Source: a virus. Taken from it: DNA of 21,262 nt. Below the pieces are notes generated by a model. It made no database searches. It had not been told where the DNA came from and saw nothing but the letters and a program-made list of their open reading frames with translations. Made by a program: the position numbers and the translations under genes. Position 1 is the first letter of the stretch. Every line of letters starts with the position of its first letter. The stretch spans positions 1 to 21,262 of IMG/VR virus record IMGVR_UViG_3300020442_000854; one strand, given 5' to 3'. This document shows positions 3,020-20,577 of this stretch, one piece after another.

Positions 3020-3351
3020 GTAATTTTTTTAAGTCTGAACAGGTTCAGGCAAACTTACAAGACATCTTTGAAACTTATCAAGAGATTGCATCTATGACCT
3101 CTCAACTAGGGAGTATGAATAAGAAAGAAAAGTTGAGTCACATTGAAGATTGCAAGGTGCTGATTGATAAACAAAAAACTTTCTATGGTAGACTGTGCCT
3201 TGCTGCATCGGAGGATTCTGAAGCAGCAGACATGAAGACAAGGATCAATGCCTTGTCAAATGCATTTGGGTATCGAGACCTCGCTGAGTGCATGGATGCT
3301 ATGGTCATGACACTCGAACAAGCGGCACAAAGGGAGGTTGACGAGACCTAA
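3016..3351 (+). CDS. DUF1825-like conserved cyanophage protein
   Basis: A 111-residue, helix-rich acidic protein (MSNFFKSEQVQANLQDIFET...) whose start overlaps the gp59 stop (ATGA). The pattern of an initial phenylalanine pair followed by SE-V-Q and amphipathic helices resembles the DUF1825 family shared by cyanobacteria and their phages. No catalytic motif is visible. Its position between gp59 and gp32 suggests a replication-linked role, but no function is known. The TAA stop lies inside the CCTAAATA motif listed separately. Confidence 0.72.
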   Translation: MSNFFKSEQVQANLQDIFETYQEIASMTSQLGSMNKKEKLSHIEDCKVLIDKQKTFYGRLCLAASEDSEAADMKTRINALSNAFGYRDLAECMDAMVMTLEQAAQREVDET

Positions 3352-4589: not shown

Positions 4590-4701
4590 AGCAGTTCACG
4601 CTTGGAATACCATGACATACGCTGAGGGAGCACTGTTCTCCCTCTGGGTCATCGGTATGTACTATATAAAGTTACGAATGGATAGGAGATTCGGACGATG
4701 A
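4582..4701 (+). CDS. Small single-span membrane protein
   Basis: A 39-residue open frame. There are three consecutive ATGs (4576, 4579, 4582); the last is preferred because GGAG at 4571-4574 is 7 bases away. It starts MGEAVHAWNTM and has one hydrophobic stretch (ALFSLWVIGMYYI), followed by a basic end (KLRMDRRFGR), giving a probable N-out/C-in membrane topology. It overlaps the stop of the preceding gene, and its TGA overlaps the ATG of the secreted protein that follows. It reads as a real coupled small gene, function unknown. Confidence 0.6.
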   Translation: MGEAVHAWNTMTYAEGALFSLWVIGMYYIKLRMDRRFGR

Positions 4702-5120
4702 AACTTGCACTCGCTGCTTTGATGATGCTCTCTGCCCTACCTGCTAGTGCAGAAAGTATTGGTGACCGAAGCAATCGGTTGGCATATCAATCGCAAAGAG
4801 GATATGCTCATCAACAAAAGTGCTATCGCACTGAGTATCGTGAAGAGTATGTGCCAGGTACTATGAGAAGTCCTGGATATGTAAAGACTTATAAGGAGCG
4901 AGTGAAGGTCCCTTGTAATAACAATGTGTATCGTCGTGATGATGCTCCGCAAAAACAGCATCAAACTGACGACAATTCCTGCATCGAAGGTTCTATCTTA
5001 GGTGGAATCCTTGGTGGTGGTGCAGGTGCTGCAGCATCTAGGGGTGATGGTCGCTACTGGGCAATCCCTCTAGGTATTGTCGGTGGTGCGATGGTTGGAT
5101 GTCAAATTGATGGGGGCTAA
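4698..5120 (+). CDS. Secreted glycine-zipper protein
   Basis: 140 residues. The first 18 form a classic signal peptide (MKLALAALMMLSALPASA, cleavage before ESIG). The middle is basic/tyrosine-rich with two cysteines (KCYRTEYREEYVPG, KVPCNNN). The C-terminal third is a glycine-zipper pair (SILGGILGGGAGAAA and IPLGIVGGAMVGC), as in 17-kDa-antigen-like envelope proteins. AGGAG at 4684-4688 gives the start, which overlaps the small membrane gene. A role in envelope interaction (for example lysis or superinfection exclusion) is possible but not shown. It is the last gene before the convergent terminator. Confidence 0.75.
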   Translation: MKLALAALMMLSALPASAESIGDRSNRLAYQSQRGYAHQQKCYRTEYREEYVPGTMRSPGYVKTYKERVKVPCNNNVYRRDDAPQKQHQTDDNSCIEGSILGGILGGGAGAAASRGDGRYWAIPLGIVGGAMVGCQIDGG

Positions 5121-5174: not shown

Positions 5175-5378
5175 TTAGGACTCTAAGGTTTTTTCCAGAA
5201 TAATCCTAAACAAATTATCTTTCATCATAACGAGGGCTTCTTGCTCTCTAGGGTCGCCACCAGGCCATTTTTCTAGATGAAAACAGACGGACCTGTACAC
5301 AAGTGCAAGTCCGTCTTTTGATATGTCTAGACTATAAAAGTCGTTAGGATCAATATCCTCCACCGTAACCTCCGCCAC
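5175..5378 (-). CDS. Conserved small cyanophage protein of unknown function
   Basis: 67 residues if it starts at the GTG at 5378, inside the 3' end of gp53; a GTG at 5363 would give 62 residues and cannot be excluded. There is no ATG near the front. The sequence (DPNDFYSLDISKDGLALVYRS, HLEKWPGGDPREQEAL) is acidic at the start and ends in a helix. It is the last gene of the minus-strand unit, directly before the terminator. No domain is recognised. Confidence 0.65.
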   Translation of the reverse strand: MAEVTVEDIDPNDFYSLDISKDGLALVYRSVCFHLEKWPGGDPREQEALVMMKDNLFRIILEKTLES

Positions 5379-6330
5379 TAGGAGAAGGACTTGGAGAAGG
5401 AGAGGGACTTGGAGAAGGCGAAGGTGAAGGTGAAGGTGACGGAGATGGACTGGGGCTAGGTGAAGGACTAGGTGAAGGTGTTGGAGATGGAGATGGGGTG
5501 CTAGTAGTTGTCCCAGAACCTCCAGAGGAAGCAGTTGATGTGCTGCTAGATGTACCAGTCTGAACTACAGTTGCGACAACACCTTCTGTTGCTGTTGCGC
5601 CAGCAGTAGTGCTACCATAATCGAAAGATGTTACAGCACCAACAGCAGTAGTACGTGCAGAACTTGCATATACTGTTGATTTTCTATTTAAGAAGAGTTG
5701 TGCGAGGCTTAGTCTGGTTTGCTTATTGTTATTGACATCCAACTCTCTATTTGGAGCATATTCAACCAGATCATCAAACTCTTCAATAATCAATTCAATA
5801 ATTGAAGAGTTTGGTAATAAAATATTTCTATTCAACTCATTTTGGAACTCTTCATGCTCATAATTTGAAACAGGATACACCGATGCTTCTTTTGTTAAAG
5901 TAGTTCCATCAGGCATTACAGTTCTATATGTTTCATTAACCTCAATGCCCTCTTTTACATATACAATATCATTGTATAAAACTTCGTTTGTTTCCCAATG
6001 ATGGATGCCATCTACTGAGTCATATTTTTCTTCTACAAACTTTTGCAATGCATCCGAAGATTTTGGCCATTGTTCGTAGAAATCTGTAATATTATTGACT
6101 AGTAAGATTACCCAATCTTTGAATGGATCTCCACAAATATCATCAGCAAGACTGGATGGTGTATCTCCATCTCTGATAGAATAAGTCTCAAATAATGTAA
6201 TGTACTTATCCAAATCTTCTCTTGCGAGAACTCTTCTGAATAGATTTTTTACTAGACGATACTTGAAATTTTCTGAAGACGTAATGCCTTCAGCAACGTA
6301 AATATTTGGTAATTGTGAGAAGTATGCCAT
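5350..6330 (-). CDS. 53: Baseplate wedge subunit gp53 with Ser-Pro repeat tail
   Basis: 326 residues. Residues 1 to about 215 match gp53, a wedge protein needed for closing baseplate wedges around the hub. Family features are an N-terminal FKYRLVKNLFRRV segment, the DTPSSLADDICGDPFKDWVILLVNNI block (compare T4 PEELANAIYGNPQLYWVLLMCN) and an FYEQWP motif. T4 gp53 is only 196 residues. Here about 110 residues are added: a Ser/Thr/Gly-rich linker, about 20 consecutive S/T-P dipeptides, then GGGYGGGY at the end. The ATG directly follows the gp48 stop. Confidence 0.87.
   Translation of the reverse strand: MAYFSQLPNIYVAEGITSSENFKYRLVKNLFRRVLAREDLDKYITLFETYSIRDGDTPSSLADDICGDPFKDWVILLVNNITDFYEQWPKSSDALQKFVEEKYDSVDGIHHWETNEVLYNDIVYVKEGIEVNETYRTVMPDGTTLTKEASVYPVSNYEHEEFQNELNRNILLPNSSIIELIIEEFDDLVEYAPNRELDVNNNKQTRLSLAQLFLNRKSTVYASSARTTAVGAVTSFDYGSTTAGATATEGVVATVVQTGTSSSTSTASSGGSGTTTSTPSPSPTPSPSPSPSPSPSPSPSPSPSPSPSPSPSPSPSPSGGGYGGGY
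5377..5502 (-). repeat. Ser-Pro dipeptide-coding repeat in gp53
   Basis: 42 codons give 20 S/T-P dipeptides. Serine is encoded by both TCN and AGY codons, and proline by all four CCN codons, so the array is not a simple DNA microsatellite and looks maintained at the protein level. The plus strand is a nearly continuous purine-rich tract of GGA/GAA units. Confidence 0.85.
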
Positions 6331-16896: not shown

Positions 16897-19449
16897 ATGC
16901 AAACCATTGACGGTATTATTAATGAACCTACAGTAAACTTCGTTGGTAAAGACGGATTTTTCTGGTGGGTTGGTGAGGTAGAAGATAATGAAGACCCTAT
17001 GGAGTTGGGTCGTGTCAAAGTTCGTGTACTTGGATATTATACGAACGTTCGTGGTGGCACTACAAACTCTTTGCCTACTGATAATCTTCCTTGGGCAACA
17101 GTTCTTCAACATACTTCTCAGGCAGGTAACGATGGTCAGGGTGAATCCTCTGGTCAGTTACAACCTGGTGCTATTGTCATGGGATTCTTCATGGATGGAG
17201 AATCTGCACAGATGCCTATTGTTATTGGTGTCATGCGTGTAAATAAATCTGCAGATACAGCAGAAAAGAAAGTATTTGCATTTACTGGTGAGAACATGGA
17301 ACCAGGCATTGCACCAAACGCATCTGCATTGCCACCTGGTGAAACGAATACCATGGCTAGAAAATCTGACGGTAGTTCGACATATCAGCGTCCATCTGGT
17401 CAGAATAATAGTGTTTCTGTTCCTGGACAAAAAACTACTCGACCTGGAGGATACGGATCACCTTCTAACATTGGTACGATGCCAGGTATTGCTGGTAGTT
17501 CGGGCAATCCCCAAAAACCTAGAAATCCTGAAAAACCTATTCCTGCAGCAAATGGTGTTGGTGGTCCATGGAAAACCCTAGAGTATAAGTTATCATATCT
17601 TATTGAAGATATTGCAGATACTGCTGGCACTCTAGTAAAAGCAGAAAATGGAGACTTCCTTGACATTGTTACTGGTAAGTTAGTTACAGCACAATCTCTC
17701 ACCAATAAGTTACAAAATTTCCTTAGTTCTGTATTTGCACAGGTTGTTTCTGCAATTAGGCAGCAACTATCAAACCTTGCTGACCAGTTATCTCTTGTCA
17801 ATCTTCTTGGTGGTGCAACTGGAGCTCCATACATTATCTTTACCGCTATTCAGTCAGCAATCACAACAATTTTAAGTTCTCTTTGCAGTATTGACCAGCA
17901 ACTGATTGGTTTTATCAATGATCCTATTGGTTCATTGCTTGGTATCCTTGAAGGATTTTTGAACTCTGCTATTAGTAAAGCAGAAATGGTTCTTCAGGGT
18001 GTTCAATCTGTTATTGATAGCGTTGTTTGTCAGGTTCAGGGCATCATTGACACCATGCTGAGCATTGTCGATACTGTTTCAACCATTGTTGAGGGTGTAG
18101 GTCAGGCAAAAGAAATTCTTGATGCATGGAAAGCAGGTAGCGAAATTTTTGAAGAAGGCACAGACCTGATTAAAAATGGCATTAACAGCATCACTGGCAT
18201 CATTTCTTTCTTCTTGAAGTTCTTCAGCAGTGGTTGTAATCGTACCGCACATGGTGGACAGGATACTGTTGGTTGGTTCCCTCTCTTTGGTGTAACACAT
18301 TGTACTGAAGCTGAGTTAGACAAAATTAATAAGATTAGAGGAAAGCAACGAGGGGGTTGTGGTGATAATGGTGGTGGCGGAAGTTTAATTGATAATATTA
18401 TTAATCAAGCAGATCCATATCTGACTGCAGCAAAAACCATGCTGGATGGTTCATATGAGATGTGGGTTGGAACTCCTGGTCGTCAAGCATCAATCAAAAA
18501 GAGTGGTAATGGAACTACTCATACATCAGTATCTCTCAACAATAACACTTATTCCGAATACACGTTCCAGAAAAAACTGAGAGAAGATAATCCCGATATT
18601 ACAAGTGAAGAATTAGAGAAAAAATTAGCACAACATAAAAAGACTGGTACGGATAGTAAAGGTGATAGTGGTAATTTAGTTGCTGACCACACATCGTATG
18701 CAGGTAACTATACTAGTGAGGTTCATGGTGACCGTTGTGAAATCGTTGATGGAACAGAAACAATTACAGTTGAAGGTGATTATCACTTGAAAATTACTGG
18801 AAACTGTCACCTTGAAGTTGGTGGTGGTTTCTTTTTGAATGCTGCTGGTGCTCCTCAAGTTGCTCCTAAAGAAGGTGCTAGTAAGAATGATAAAATTCAA
18901 AAGCACACCATGGTATTTGGATCTGATGTTGATGTTAACGTAGCAGGTGCTAAGTTTGCTCTGCAATCATCTGAGATTGAATTGGGTGCTCAAGCACACA
19001 AAATTGCTGGTGCAAGTTACGAAAACTCCTGTGGTAATCAGAGTTATTCTGGTGCTGAGGTTATGATCAATGCTAATAACTCTATTGAATTTAACACAGT
19101 ATCAGAATACCACTTTGTAAACTTCCCAAGCACCAATCCAGTTTCTGCTAAATCGGGTATCTTTAATATGGTTAGAGGTTCTATTGACTCGGTTCTTGTT
19201 CCTGGTTCTGGTGGTTCTGATACTGTACCTAGATATAGTGTTACTAATCCTTCTGGTCCTGTAAGTTACGTCTGTGGTGCAACTGGTTACAACTGTAGCG
19301 TTACTACTGGTGCATTTAACGTTGATGTTGTTGCAGGTCTATTCAGAATCTCTGCAAAAACTGTTGGCACTATTGATGCCTTGGCAGCACTCAACCTCAG
19401 TTCTGAAGGAATCGTTAGAGTTTCTGGTAAGTCCATCTTCCTGAATTGA
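16897..19449 (+). CDS. 5: Baseplate hub/tail spike gp5-like protein without lysozyme domain
   Basis: 850 residues. Residues about 18-115 form the OB-fold domain of gp5/VgrG-like hubs: WWVGEVEDNEDPMELGRVKV, LPWATVLQHT and LQPGAIVMGFFMDGESAQMP. Residues 120-230 are a Pro/Gly/Asn-rich linker. Residues 230-430 are long hydrophobic helices rich in Ile/Leu/Gln. Residues about 600-850 are a repetitive beta region (ETITVEGDYHLKITGNCHLEV and similar), fitting the triple beta-helix needle. T4 gp5 has a lysozyme domain between the OB fold and needle; no such sequence is visible here. It probably forms the membrane-piercing tip with gp27. No strong SD precedes the ATG. Confidence 0.83.
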   Translation: MQTIDGIINEPTVNFVGKDGFFWWVGEVEDNEDPMELGRVKVRVLGYYTNVRGGTTNSLPTDNLPWATVLQHTSQAGNDGQGESSGQLQPGAIVMGFFMDGESAQMPIVIGVMRVNKSADTAEKKVFAFTGENMEPGIAPNASALPPGETNTMARKSDGSSTYQRPSGQNNSVSVPGQKTTRPGGYGSPSNIGTMPGIAGSSGNPQKPRNPEKPIPAANGVGGPWKTLEYKLSYLIEDIADTAGTLVKAENGDFLDIVTGKLVTAQSLTNKLQNFLSSVFAQVVSAIRQQLSNLADQLSLVNLLGGATGAPYIIFTAIQSAITTILSSLCSIDQQLIGFINDPIGSLLGILEGFLNSAISKAEMVLQGVQSVIDSVVCQVQGIIDTMLSIVDTVSTIVEGVGQAKEILDAWKAGSEIFEEGTDLIKNGINSITGIISFFLKFFSSGCNRTAHGGQDTVGWFPLFGVTHCTEAELDKINKIRGKQRGGCGDNGGGGSLIDNIINQADPYLTAAKTMLDGSYEMWVGTPGRQASIKKSGNGTTHTSVSLNNNTYSEYTFQKKLREDNPDITSEELEKKLAQHKKTGTDSKGDSGNLVADHTSYAGNYTSEVHGDRCEIVDGTETITVEGDYHLKITGNCHLEVGGGFFLNAAGAPQVAPKEGASKNDKIQKHTMVFGSDVDVNVAGAKFALQSSEIELGAQAHKIAGASYENSCGNQSYSGAEVMINANNSIEFNTVSEYHFVNFPSTNPVSAKSGIFNMVRGSIDSVLVPGSGGSDTVPRYSVTNPSGPVSYVCGATGYNCSVTTGAFNVDVVAGLFRISAKTVGTIDALAALNLSSEGIVRVSGKSIFLN

Positions 19450-19474
19450 CAAGGGTTGACACCTGTGCTATGAT
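19446..19474 (+). promoter_or_regulatory. Strong sigma70-like promoter of the small-gene cluster
   Basis: A consensus TTGACA (19446-19451), a 17-bp spacer and TATGAT (19469-19474) with an upstream TGC. GGGTAGTCAA follows at 19479-19488 in the same register as at gp32. The -35 overlaps the gp5 stop (TGA 19447-19449). A second TTGACA at 19456-19461 is out of register for this -10. Confidence 0.75.
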
Positions 19475-19497: not shown

Positions 19498-19689
19498 ATG
19501 GATTCCCTCGCACACGTCTTTGTCAATTTCTCAAAGCGTAAGATGACCCTCGTCGATGACGAAGGTTATGAAAACGAAGTACAATGGAAGATGGATATGG
19601 AGGGCGCTGCTGGATTTTCAGAAACTATTTCTGAAGTTCAAGAAATTGTTGACAATGATTTGATTACTTATTGCTTTGCTGTAAAATGA
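19498..19689 (+). CDS. Conserved small protein of unknown function
   Basis: 63 residues, starting 24 bases after the -10 of the strong promoter and so near the 5' end of its transcript. It opens MDSLAHVFVNFSKRKMTLVDDEGYENEVQW, reads as a small beta-sheet followed by an acidic helix, and ends ITYCFAVK. No family is recognised. Its TGA overlaps the next ATG (ATGA), so it leads a coupled cluster. Confidence 0.75.
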   Translation: MDSLAHVFVNFSKRKMTLVDDEGYENEVQWKMDMEGAAGFSETISEVQEIVDNDLITYCFAVK

Positions 19690-19913
19690 ATGAACCAATC
19701 CGAGTAACAGAAGCAGAAGCAGAACAGTATCTTGAGTTTCTGGTTGATATGTGTGAGCGCAATCGTTGCGTTTGGCGTATCGAAAGACCCGATGGTGCTG
19801 CTGTAATTCTCGCTCCTGTAGTTCAGTCAGGTCCTCCTCTCTCCGAGGATGTAATTGACCAAGTAGAAGAATTTCGTAAACAATTTATTGAGGCAATCGA
19901 TGAAACTTCGTAA
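19686..19913 (+). CDS. Conserved small protein of unknown function
   Basis: 75 residues from the ATG at 19686, chosen because it overlaps the previous stop; a TTG 15 bases earlier is in frame but less likely. It opens MNEPIRVTEAEAEQYLEFLV and contains CERNRCVWRIERPDGAAVIL, a beta-hairpin-like segment, then an acidic C-terminal helix. No domain is recognised. Its last codons overlap the start of the metallopeptidase-like gene. Confidence 0.72.
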   Translation: MNEPIRVTEAEAEQYLEFLVDMCERNRCVWRIERPDGAAVILAPVVQSGPPLSEDVIDQVEEFRKQFIEAIDETS

Positions 19914-20577
19914 TGCAATTTTGTCTGGACTTATGTTCGGAATGGCACATGGTATTGCAGCAAATGCTGAACCTACCAAGGGTTACTACAGCATGGATGC
20001 AATGGGTTGTATGCTCCTTCGTGAATGCACCAAAGATGTAGAAGAAGTTTATTCTCTACTTGATATCTCTTCCAACTATGATAATACAGAAGAGTTTACA
20101 CCAGTGGCACAAGAGTTTAATAACATGCTCATGTCACTAAATCAAATCGGTGTCAAAGTATATCTTGCCGATGAACGTTACTTCCCTAAGATGCACCGTG
20201 GAGTATATCACACGGTAAGCAATAACTTCTTTTTGAACAAGAAGTTTATGGATGATCCTGGAACTTTGATGATGGTAATGCGTCATGAAGGGTGGCACGC
20301 TGCTCAGGATTGTATGGCAGGTTCTATTAAGAATAATATGATTGCCATTATCCTACCTGAGGAAGATGTTCCTATGTTGTGGCGGGTTATGGTAGAACGT
20401 ACATATCCTGCAAGTGCAGTGCCCTGGGAAGCAGAAGCACAGTGGGCAGGAAGAACTGAAGGTATGACCATGAAAGCACTTAAGAGTTGTGCTGCTGGCA
20501 CTATGTGGACTGATTATGAAATCACTCCTATGACTCGTGAGTGGTTGGAAGAAAACAACTACATAAAGAAGCAGTGA
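19900..20577 (+). CDS. Secreted HExxH (zincin-like) metallopeptidase candidate
   Basis: 225 residues from the ATG at 19900. An upstream in-frame TTG at 19888 would only lengthen the signal region. Residues 1-23 are a signal peptide (basic MKLRN, hydrophobic core, ANA cleavage site before EPTKG). HEGWH at 129-133 is a zincin HExxH motif in the context MVMRHEGWHAAQDC. A glutamate in WEAEAQWAGR (about 177-179) is a plausible third zinc ligand. Several cysteines (37, 42, 138, 197) could form disulfides, fitting export. Substrate unknown; a periplasmic protease or peptidoglycan/envelope role is possible. The start lies inside the end of the preceding gene. Confidence 0.78.
   Translation: MKLRNAILSGLMFGMAHGIAANAEPTKGYYSMDAMGCMLLRECTKDVEEVYSLLDISSNYDNTEEFTPVAQEFNNMLMSLNQIGVKVYLADERYFPKMHRGVYHTVSNNFFLNKKFMDDPGTLMMVMRHEGWHAAQDCMAGSIKNNMIAIILPEEDVPMLWRVMVERTYPASAVPWEAEAQWAGRTEGMTMKALKSCAAGTMWTDYEITPMTREWLEENNYIKKQ

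Follow-up and report, generated by a model that had tools for sequence, protein, structure and literature searches.

A candidate exported gluzincin-like metallopeptidase encoded by T4-like cyanophages

The structures closest to the predicted fold of the phage protein described here, though only weak matches, are those of the IrrE/PprI gluzincins (ImmA/IrrE, M78-like). IrrE is a cytoplasmic protein with additional domains, whereas the phage protein carries a predicted signal peptide and likely disulfides; the Pfam profile for IrrE/ImmA (M78) did not match it or eight of its relatives at the gathering score. SprT and Spartan are likewise zincins, and Spartan structures were recovered in our structural comparisons with VIA Z scores of 4.2 and 4.0, but these proteins are DNA bound and the phage protein is predicted to be exported. 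The Pfam SprT-like profile matched neither the phage protein nor the S-SCSM2R copy that bears the SprT name. Peptidase M76 (Atp23, PF09768) enters the comparison through sub-threshold Pfam matches in two distant relatives (E values of 5e-4 and 1.5e-3), the better of which reached 20.3 bits against a cutoff of 25.2; the phage protein itself gave no such match. In function, the nearest precedent is the secreted Listeria metzincin of phage origin, likewise a phage-derived zincin that acts outside the cytoplasm (PMC8235301). That enzyme is a metzincin and not a gluzincin, has a lipoprotein partner, and belongs to another host, so the analogy holds at the level of function only.

The window, by which we mean the whole stretch of DNA analyzed (21,262 nt, the full length of its record), covers part of the genome of a T4-like cyanophage, with genes for PhoH, a baseplate wedge protein, a tail protein, the gp5 baseplate hub, and CpeT. 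The wedge protein (positions 5350 to 6330, minus strand, PHROG 232) has a C-terminal tail consisting of a long Ser-Pro repeat. The initial annotation had proposed that the gene at 19900 to 20577 (plus strand) encodes an exported HExxH protease, and the frame indeed yields a 225-residue protein with HEGWH at residues 129 to 133 (20284 to 20298, plus strand). A TTG codon 12 nt upstream of the ATG at 19900 could also serve as the start; we favored the ATG because the signal peptide then falls at the beginning of the protein. Open frames of at least 50 codons on both strands of the window comprise 15,956 amino acids and contain two HExxH motifs, the second of which lies in a reverse-strand open frame, and HExxH by itself is therefore weak evidence. 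What lifts HEGWH beyond chance is its conservation among related loci.

The protein matches PHROG 591 along its whole length (E value of 8.1e-125; profile positions 1 to 226 of 226, residues 2 to 224 of 225) and does not differ from that family, which is also known as T4-GC 945 and includes Syn9 gp219 and its relatives; the S-ShM2 copy is labeled T4-LIKE GC 945. The function label of PHROG 591 is "unknown function," and our literature searches, which covered open-access sources, found no published description of the family. A tblastn search at an E value of 1e-3 returned 366 phage records, every one with at least 80% coverage and many of them near-identical isolates, with the names Synechococcus phage (301), Cyanophage (61), and Prochlorococcus phage (4). 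Using search patterns that did not include the HEGWH motif, we also collected 163 relatives from viral contigs and retained the best 80. HEGWHAAQDC was identical in all of these 80 loci and in the window and was kept in each of nine named phage records examined. For the mature part of the protein, comparison of the window copy with four relatives gave dN/dS values of 0.119, 0.087, 0.102, and 0.086; in a fifth comparison, synonymous sites were saturated. Others have already noticed the motif, as isolated GenBank names show: S-SCSM1 and WH25-B each have a "proteolytic enzyme," S-CREM2 has a "metallopeptidase," and S-SCSM2R has a "SprT-like" protein. Pfam gave nothing above cutoff for the window protein or eight relatives, NCBIfam gave no match near cutoff for seven proteins, and the PADLOC defense models matched none of four. 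A sequence search of the PDB found no match for the window protein, and the A4 query returned two unrelated, nonsignificant hits.

A 31% match between the window protein and S-CRES3 gp61 led to a second, more distant set of proteins. A search at an E value of 0.01 recovered 70 phage records, including that of the query itself, and a pattern scan recovered 40 viral contigs, one of them actually PHROG 591. The members of this set that were tested are assigned to PHROG 16003 or PHROG 3541, and for several there was a weak match to PHROG 591 as well. When the two families were aligned with hhalign, the probability was 98% (E value of 2.6e-13), and by these sequence comparisons PHROG 591 is remotely related to PHROGs 16003 and 3541. 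The latter two include S-CREM2 gp108 ("metallopeptidase") and share with the window protein a predicted signal peptide, the HExxHxxQD motif, and the ExEA motif, but they are shorter, are only 16 to 26% identical to it, lack the N-terminal part that contains C37 and C43, and contain a separate cysteine pair. Both families occur together on one 141-kb contig (L199 and L059; positions 55690 to 56343 and 62144 to 62683 of G001), about 6 kb apart.

In an alignment of 61 sequences from the two families, G84, G101, Y103, H129, E130, H133, Q136, D137, E177, E179, and A180 were invariant. The invariance of HExxHxxQD is partly by construction in the distant set (42 loci, one of which, L205, proved to be PHROG 591), since the scan pattern contained that motif and the frame filter required [LIM][RT]HE..H..QD. 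The ExEA motif (residues 177 to 180; 20428 to 20439, plus strand) was absent from both the pattern and the filter, and its invariance in the distant set is thus unbiased. H129, E130, and H133, whose conservation had been set as the check on the protease proposal, are retained in the homologues, and the downstream glutamate cited in support of that proposal corresponds to E177 and E179, both invariant in 61/61 sequences.

An AlphaFold2 model of the window protein based on the 61-sequence alignment had a pLDDT of 91.0 and a pTM of 0.84, and a model of a distant-family protein had values of 87.1 and 0.80. In both, the helix with HExxH precedes the one that carries ExEA (predicted helices 120 to 139 and 171 to 184, respectively, in the window protein). 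Foldseek searches of the PDB gave no match at an E value of 0.001; the best values were 0.20 for the window protein, with lethal factor in the top rows, and 0.11 for the distant family. Among viral models, the best Foldseek match was the "Proteolytic enzyme" of S-SCSM1, and a further match (E value of 3.2e-6) was to a 182-residue protein of ACG-2014f, a phage whose PHROG 3541 member has that length. VIA-align ranked IrrE first for both models, with a Z score of 6.1 for the window protein (3.4 Å over 90 residues) and 8.0 for the distant family (2.9 Å over 87 residues), values in the range of 6 to 8 that the tool flags as ambiguous and that may reflect only a common arrangement. The matches after IrrE included PprI, an IrrE-like regulator, lethal factor, ArdC, and PPEP; they were mostly zincins for the window model and nearly all zincins for the distant-family model. 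The zincin fold is predicted, and in these models the argument for it is carried by the consistent lists of zincins together with the invariant residues and by no single match. The structural check on the earlier proposal thus came out in its favor as to the kind of fold recovered but with individual matches that were weak.

Both VIA alignments end at residue 124 of IrrE, opposite residues 188 (window) and 178 (distant family) of the models. If the ends of the alignments are ungapped, E177 and its distant-family counterpart, E167, fall opposite residue 113 of IrrE, the third zinc ligand of that protein. On the models, then, E177 is likely the third zinc ligand, with H129 and H133 as the other two putative ligands and E130 as the putative catalytic glutamate.

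The suggestion that the protein is exported is supported by its N-terminus (MKLRNAILSGLMFGMAHGIAANA, followed by EP), which is signal-like in having a net charge of +2 and a best 10-residue mean hydropathy of 1.89. The predicted signal peptide covers residues 1 to 23 (19900 to 19968, plus strand), with cleavage likely after A21-N22-A23. A hydropathy above 1.6 was found in only 1 of 19 other frames checked in the window, at 4698 to 5120 (plus strand). That frame encodes a second clear signal-peptide protein, of 140 residues and with a glycine-rich C terminus; it belongs to PHROG 767, labeled cAMP phosphodiesterase, a label for which we saw no obvious sequence support. Among relatives of the zincin-like protein, the N-terminal sequence is highly variable and the signal pattern is maintained. 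We scored export by a simple rule (positive charge, hydrophobic stretch, and cleavage-like motif) in the proteins that passed filters on start and length, namely, 52 distinct sequences of 81 in PHROG 591 and 33 distinct sequences of 42 in the distant set. All three elements were present in 44 of the 52, as in the window protein, and in 32 of the 33; by this rule, 8 of the 52 N-termini lacked a net positive charge. No lipobox or RR was found in either group.

Exactly four cysteines were present in the mature part of all 52 distinct PHROG 591 proteins and of 31 of the 33 distant-set proteins. C138 (20311 to 20313, plus strand) and C197 (20488 to 20490, plus strand) are likely disulfide partners; both were present in 59/61 aligned sequences, with one relative lacking both and one ending before C197. 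This pair is common to the window protein and the distant families, except for the PHROG 3541 member. In L203 and L169, PHROG 3541 relatives of the ACG-2014f type, the counterparts of both C138 and C197 are missing. C37 and C43 (20008 to 20028, plus strand) form the second conserved pair, which was seen only in PHROG 591 members and was invariant in an alignment of the window protein with 35 of the 80 loci (picked by eye for diversity). This pattern of cysteines fits disulfides that would form outside the cytoplasm.

Neither family was found in any of seven Prochlorococcus phages (P-SSM4, P-RSM4, P-SSM2, P-HM1, P-HM2, P-SSM7, and P-SSM3) or in Synechococcus phage S-PM2; the remaining phage records of that comparison, except Syn33, had been preselected as known carriers. 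Two of the four matching records named Prochlorococcus phage could be identified (Syn1 and Syn33), and both list Synechococcus hosts. By name, records bearing PhoH include 24 Prochlorococcus phages and 373 Synechococcus phages. These figures are suggestive of a bias toward Synechococcus phages, in records that are redundant and were compared by name and not one by one. In a control set of cellular genomes, the PHROG 16003 profile matched Synechococcus elongatus at E values of 0.01 and 1e-6 and had no match at 1e-30, which suggests a cellular relative. PHROG 591 matched S. elongatus and Methanocaldococcus jannaschii at 1e-3 and nothing at 1e-8, and PHROG 3541 had no match in the same genome set. 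Scans of bacterial contigs with the window protein and the A3 queries found no relative, a weak negative given the strict DNA-pattern step, and a search of plasmids gave no match.

The strong host-type promoter that the initial annotation had placed ahead of the gene is present at 19446 to 19474 (plus strand), where TTGACA and TATGAT are separated by 17 nt, with TG before the −10 element. This sigma-70-like sequence matches 11 of 12 consensus positions and overlaps the stop codon of gp5. We surveyed 217 sequences with a narrow pattern for the end of gp5 and found the layout after gp5 repeated in four other contigs (L010, L016, L028, and L084, of which L010 and L084 are alike), that is, in five distinct places including the window; the 17-nt spacers were counted by eye. 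T4-late-like motifs (CTAAATA or CATAAATA) occur in the window at 3348, 7371, 8636, and 16864 on the plus strand, starting 28 to 73 nt before gene starts. The last of these, CATAAATA, lies upstream of gp5, and none of four T4-late-type motifs tried was found on the plus strand from 16872 to the end of the window. Given the host-type promoter and the lack of a late motif of those tried farther downstream, early or middle expression of the zincin-like gene is likely from the sequence, and the early timing proposed previously gains indirect support.

Two small genes separate the promoter from the zincin-like gene. One (19498 to 19689, plus strand) encodes 63 residues and belongs to PHROG 662, labeled unknown function. 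The other (19686 to 19913, plus strand) encodes 75 residues, belongs to PHROG 375 ("Phd-like antitoxin"), and overlaps the start of the zincin-like gene by 14 nt. Across 77 distinct loci for which 1.5 kb of upstream sequence was available, none of six neighbors from the window that were tested proved to be a fixed partner; CpeT, for example, lies within 1 kb in 10 of them. The Phd-like gene adjoins the zincin-like gene in only 3 of the 77, and we rejected a toxin-antitoxin reading on that ground.

The initial annotation placed the candidate in the periplasm and raised envelope remodeling, processing of receptor proteins, and a block to superinfection as conceivable roles. Several other functions could be envisaged for the protein. 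It might bind zinc without being a protease, for example as a decoy or inhibitor, and both an HExxH oxygenase domain and the N-terminal domain of lethal factor were among the structural matches. The latter domain is proteolytically inactive, and zincin folds without proteolysis exist. However, inactive copies of zincins usually lose the catalytic glutamate, and here that residue and all candidate ligands are invariant in 61/61 sequences, so we regard a nonproteolytic role as quite unlikely. A protease might instead work in the thylakoid lumen, to which cyanobacterial signal peptides also lead, processing or removing photosynthesis proteins of the lumen while photosynthesis is maintained by the phage. 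Genes for photosynthesis or carbon metabolism lie within about 5 kb in six of nine annotated neighborhoods (psbA, psbD, and hli in Syn9; petE and gnd in S-ShM2; petE, PTOX, zwf, and gnd in S-SCSM1; hli and petE in S-TIM54; talC, zwf, and gnd in S-SCSM2R; and CP12 and cpeT in ACG-2014b). In the window, a CpeT-like gene also precedes the zincin-like gene. Against a lumenal role, the seven Prochlorococcus phages tested do not have the gene, though Prochlorococcus possesses thylakoids. Moreover, such regions are known insertion hot spots for unrelated genes (PMC3037559), which makes closeness a weak argument, and no partner is fixed. Action in the lumen is therefore possible but not probable.

The precedent from Listeria raises the further idea that the protein helps lysis by weakening the envelope late in infection, since there an exported, phage-derived zincin sensitizes cells to lysis (PMC8235301). 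The nearest promoter, however, is of host type and not of late type, no neighbor tested is a fixed partner, and a link to lysis genes was not seen; we think this role unlikely. Proteases also process phage heads, and zincin-like peptidases have been suggested for head processing in other phages (PMC7824862). In the window, moreover, the gene follows gp5, the baseplate hub gene, so the protein might be a virion or head maturation protease whose export is only apparent. But signal-like N-termini are found in both families, gp5 lies within 1 kb in just 11 of the 77 loci, and the distant relative S-CREM2 gp108 is not listed in the virion proteome of its phage (Table 3 of PMC10665884). The zincin-like protein is probably not part of the virion, and a role in head maturation is very unlikely. 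As to the initial annotation's placing of the gene outside the virion genes, the gene lies beside gp5 in the window but is no fixed part of the virion genes across loci.

Taken together, the sequence argues well, and the predicted fold moderately, for a candidate exported gluzincin-like metallopeptidase, in line with the earlier proposal of an exported zincin. The reading we prefer, with a probability of roughly 0.68, is that it is a disulfide-stabilized enzyme of this kind that acts on host proteins outside the cytoplasm to favor infection. The protein would be produced in the infected Synechococcus cell from the host-type promoter, sent across the plasma or thylakoid membrane by its signal peptide, which would then be removed, and stabilized in its mature form by two disulfides. 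H129, H133, and E177 would bind zinc and E130 would activate water for cleavage of a peptide bond, so that one or a few host proteins would most likely be clipped outside the cytoplasm to the advantage of the infection. The periplasm or envelope is a more probable site for this than the thylakoid lumen.

The best-known host takeover genes of cyanophages work within the cytoplasm or target photosynthesis complexes. Here, a conserved candidate enzyme, predicted to be exported, is encoded in hundreds of records of Synechococcus phages and turned up in none of the Prochlorococcus phages that were tested; if it is indeed sent out of the cytoplasm, the periplasm and lumen of these cells would become a field of phage action. 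More tentatively, and as an idea that may well prove wrong, PHROGs 591, 16003, and 3541 could together form a large superfamily of exported gluzincins, derived from a cyanobacterial zincin and used as a tool for extracytoplasmic host takeover that is needed against Synechococcus and not against Prochlorococcus. If so, Synechococcus and Prochlorococcus would differ in the target, be it a protein or a feature of the envelope.
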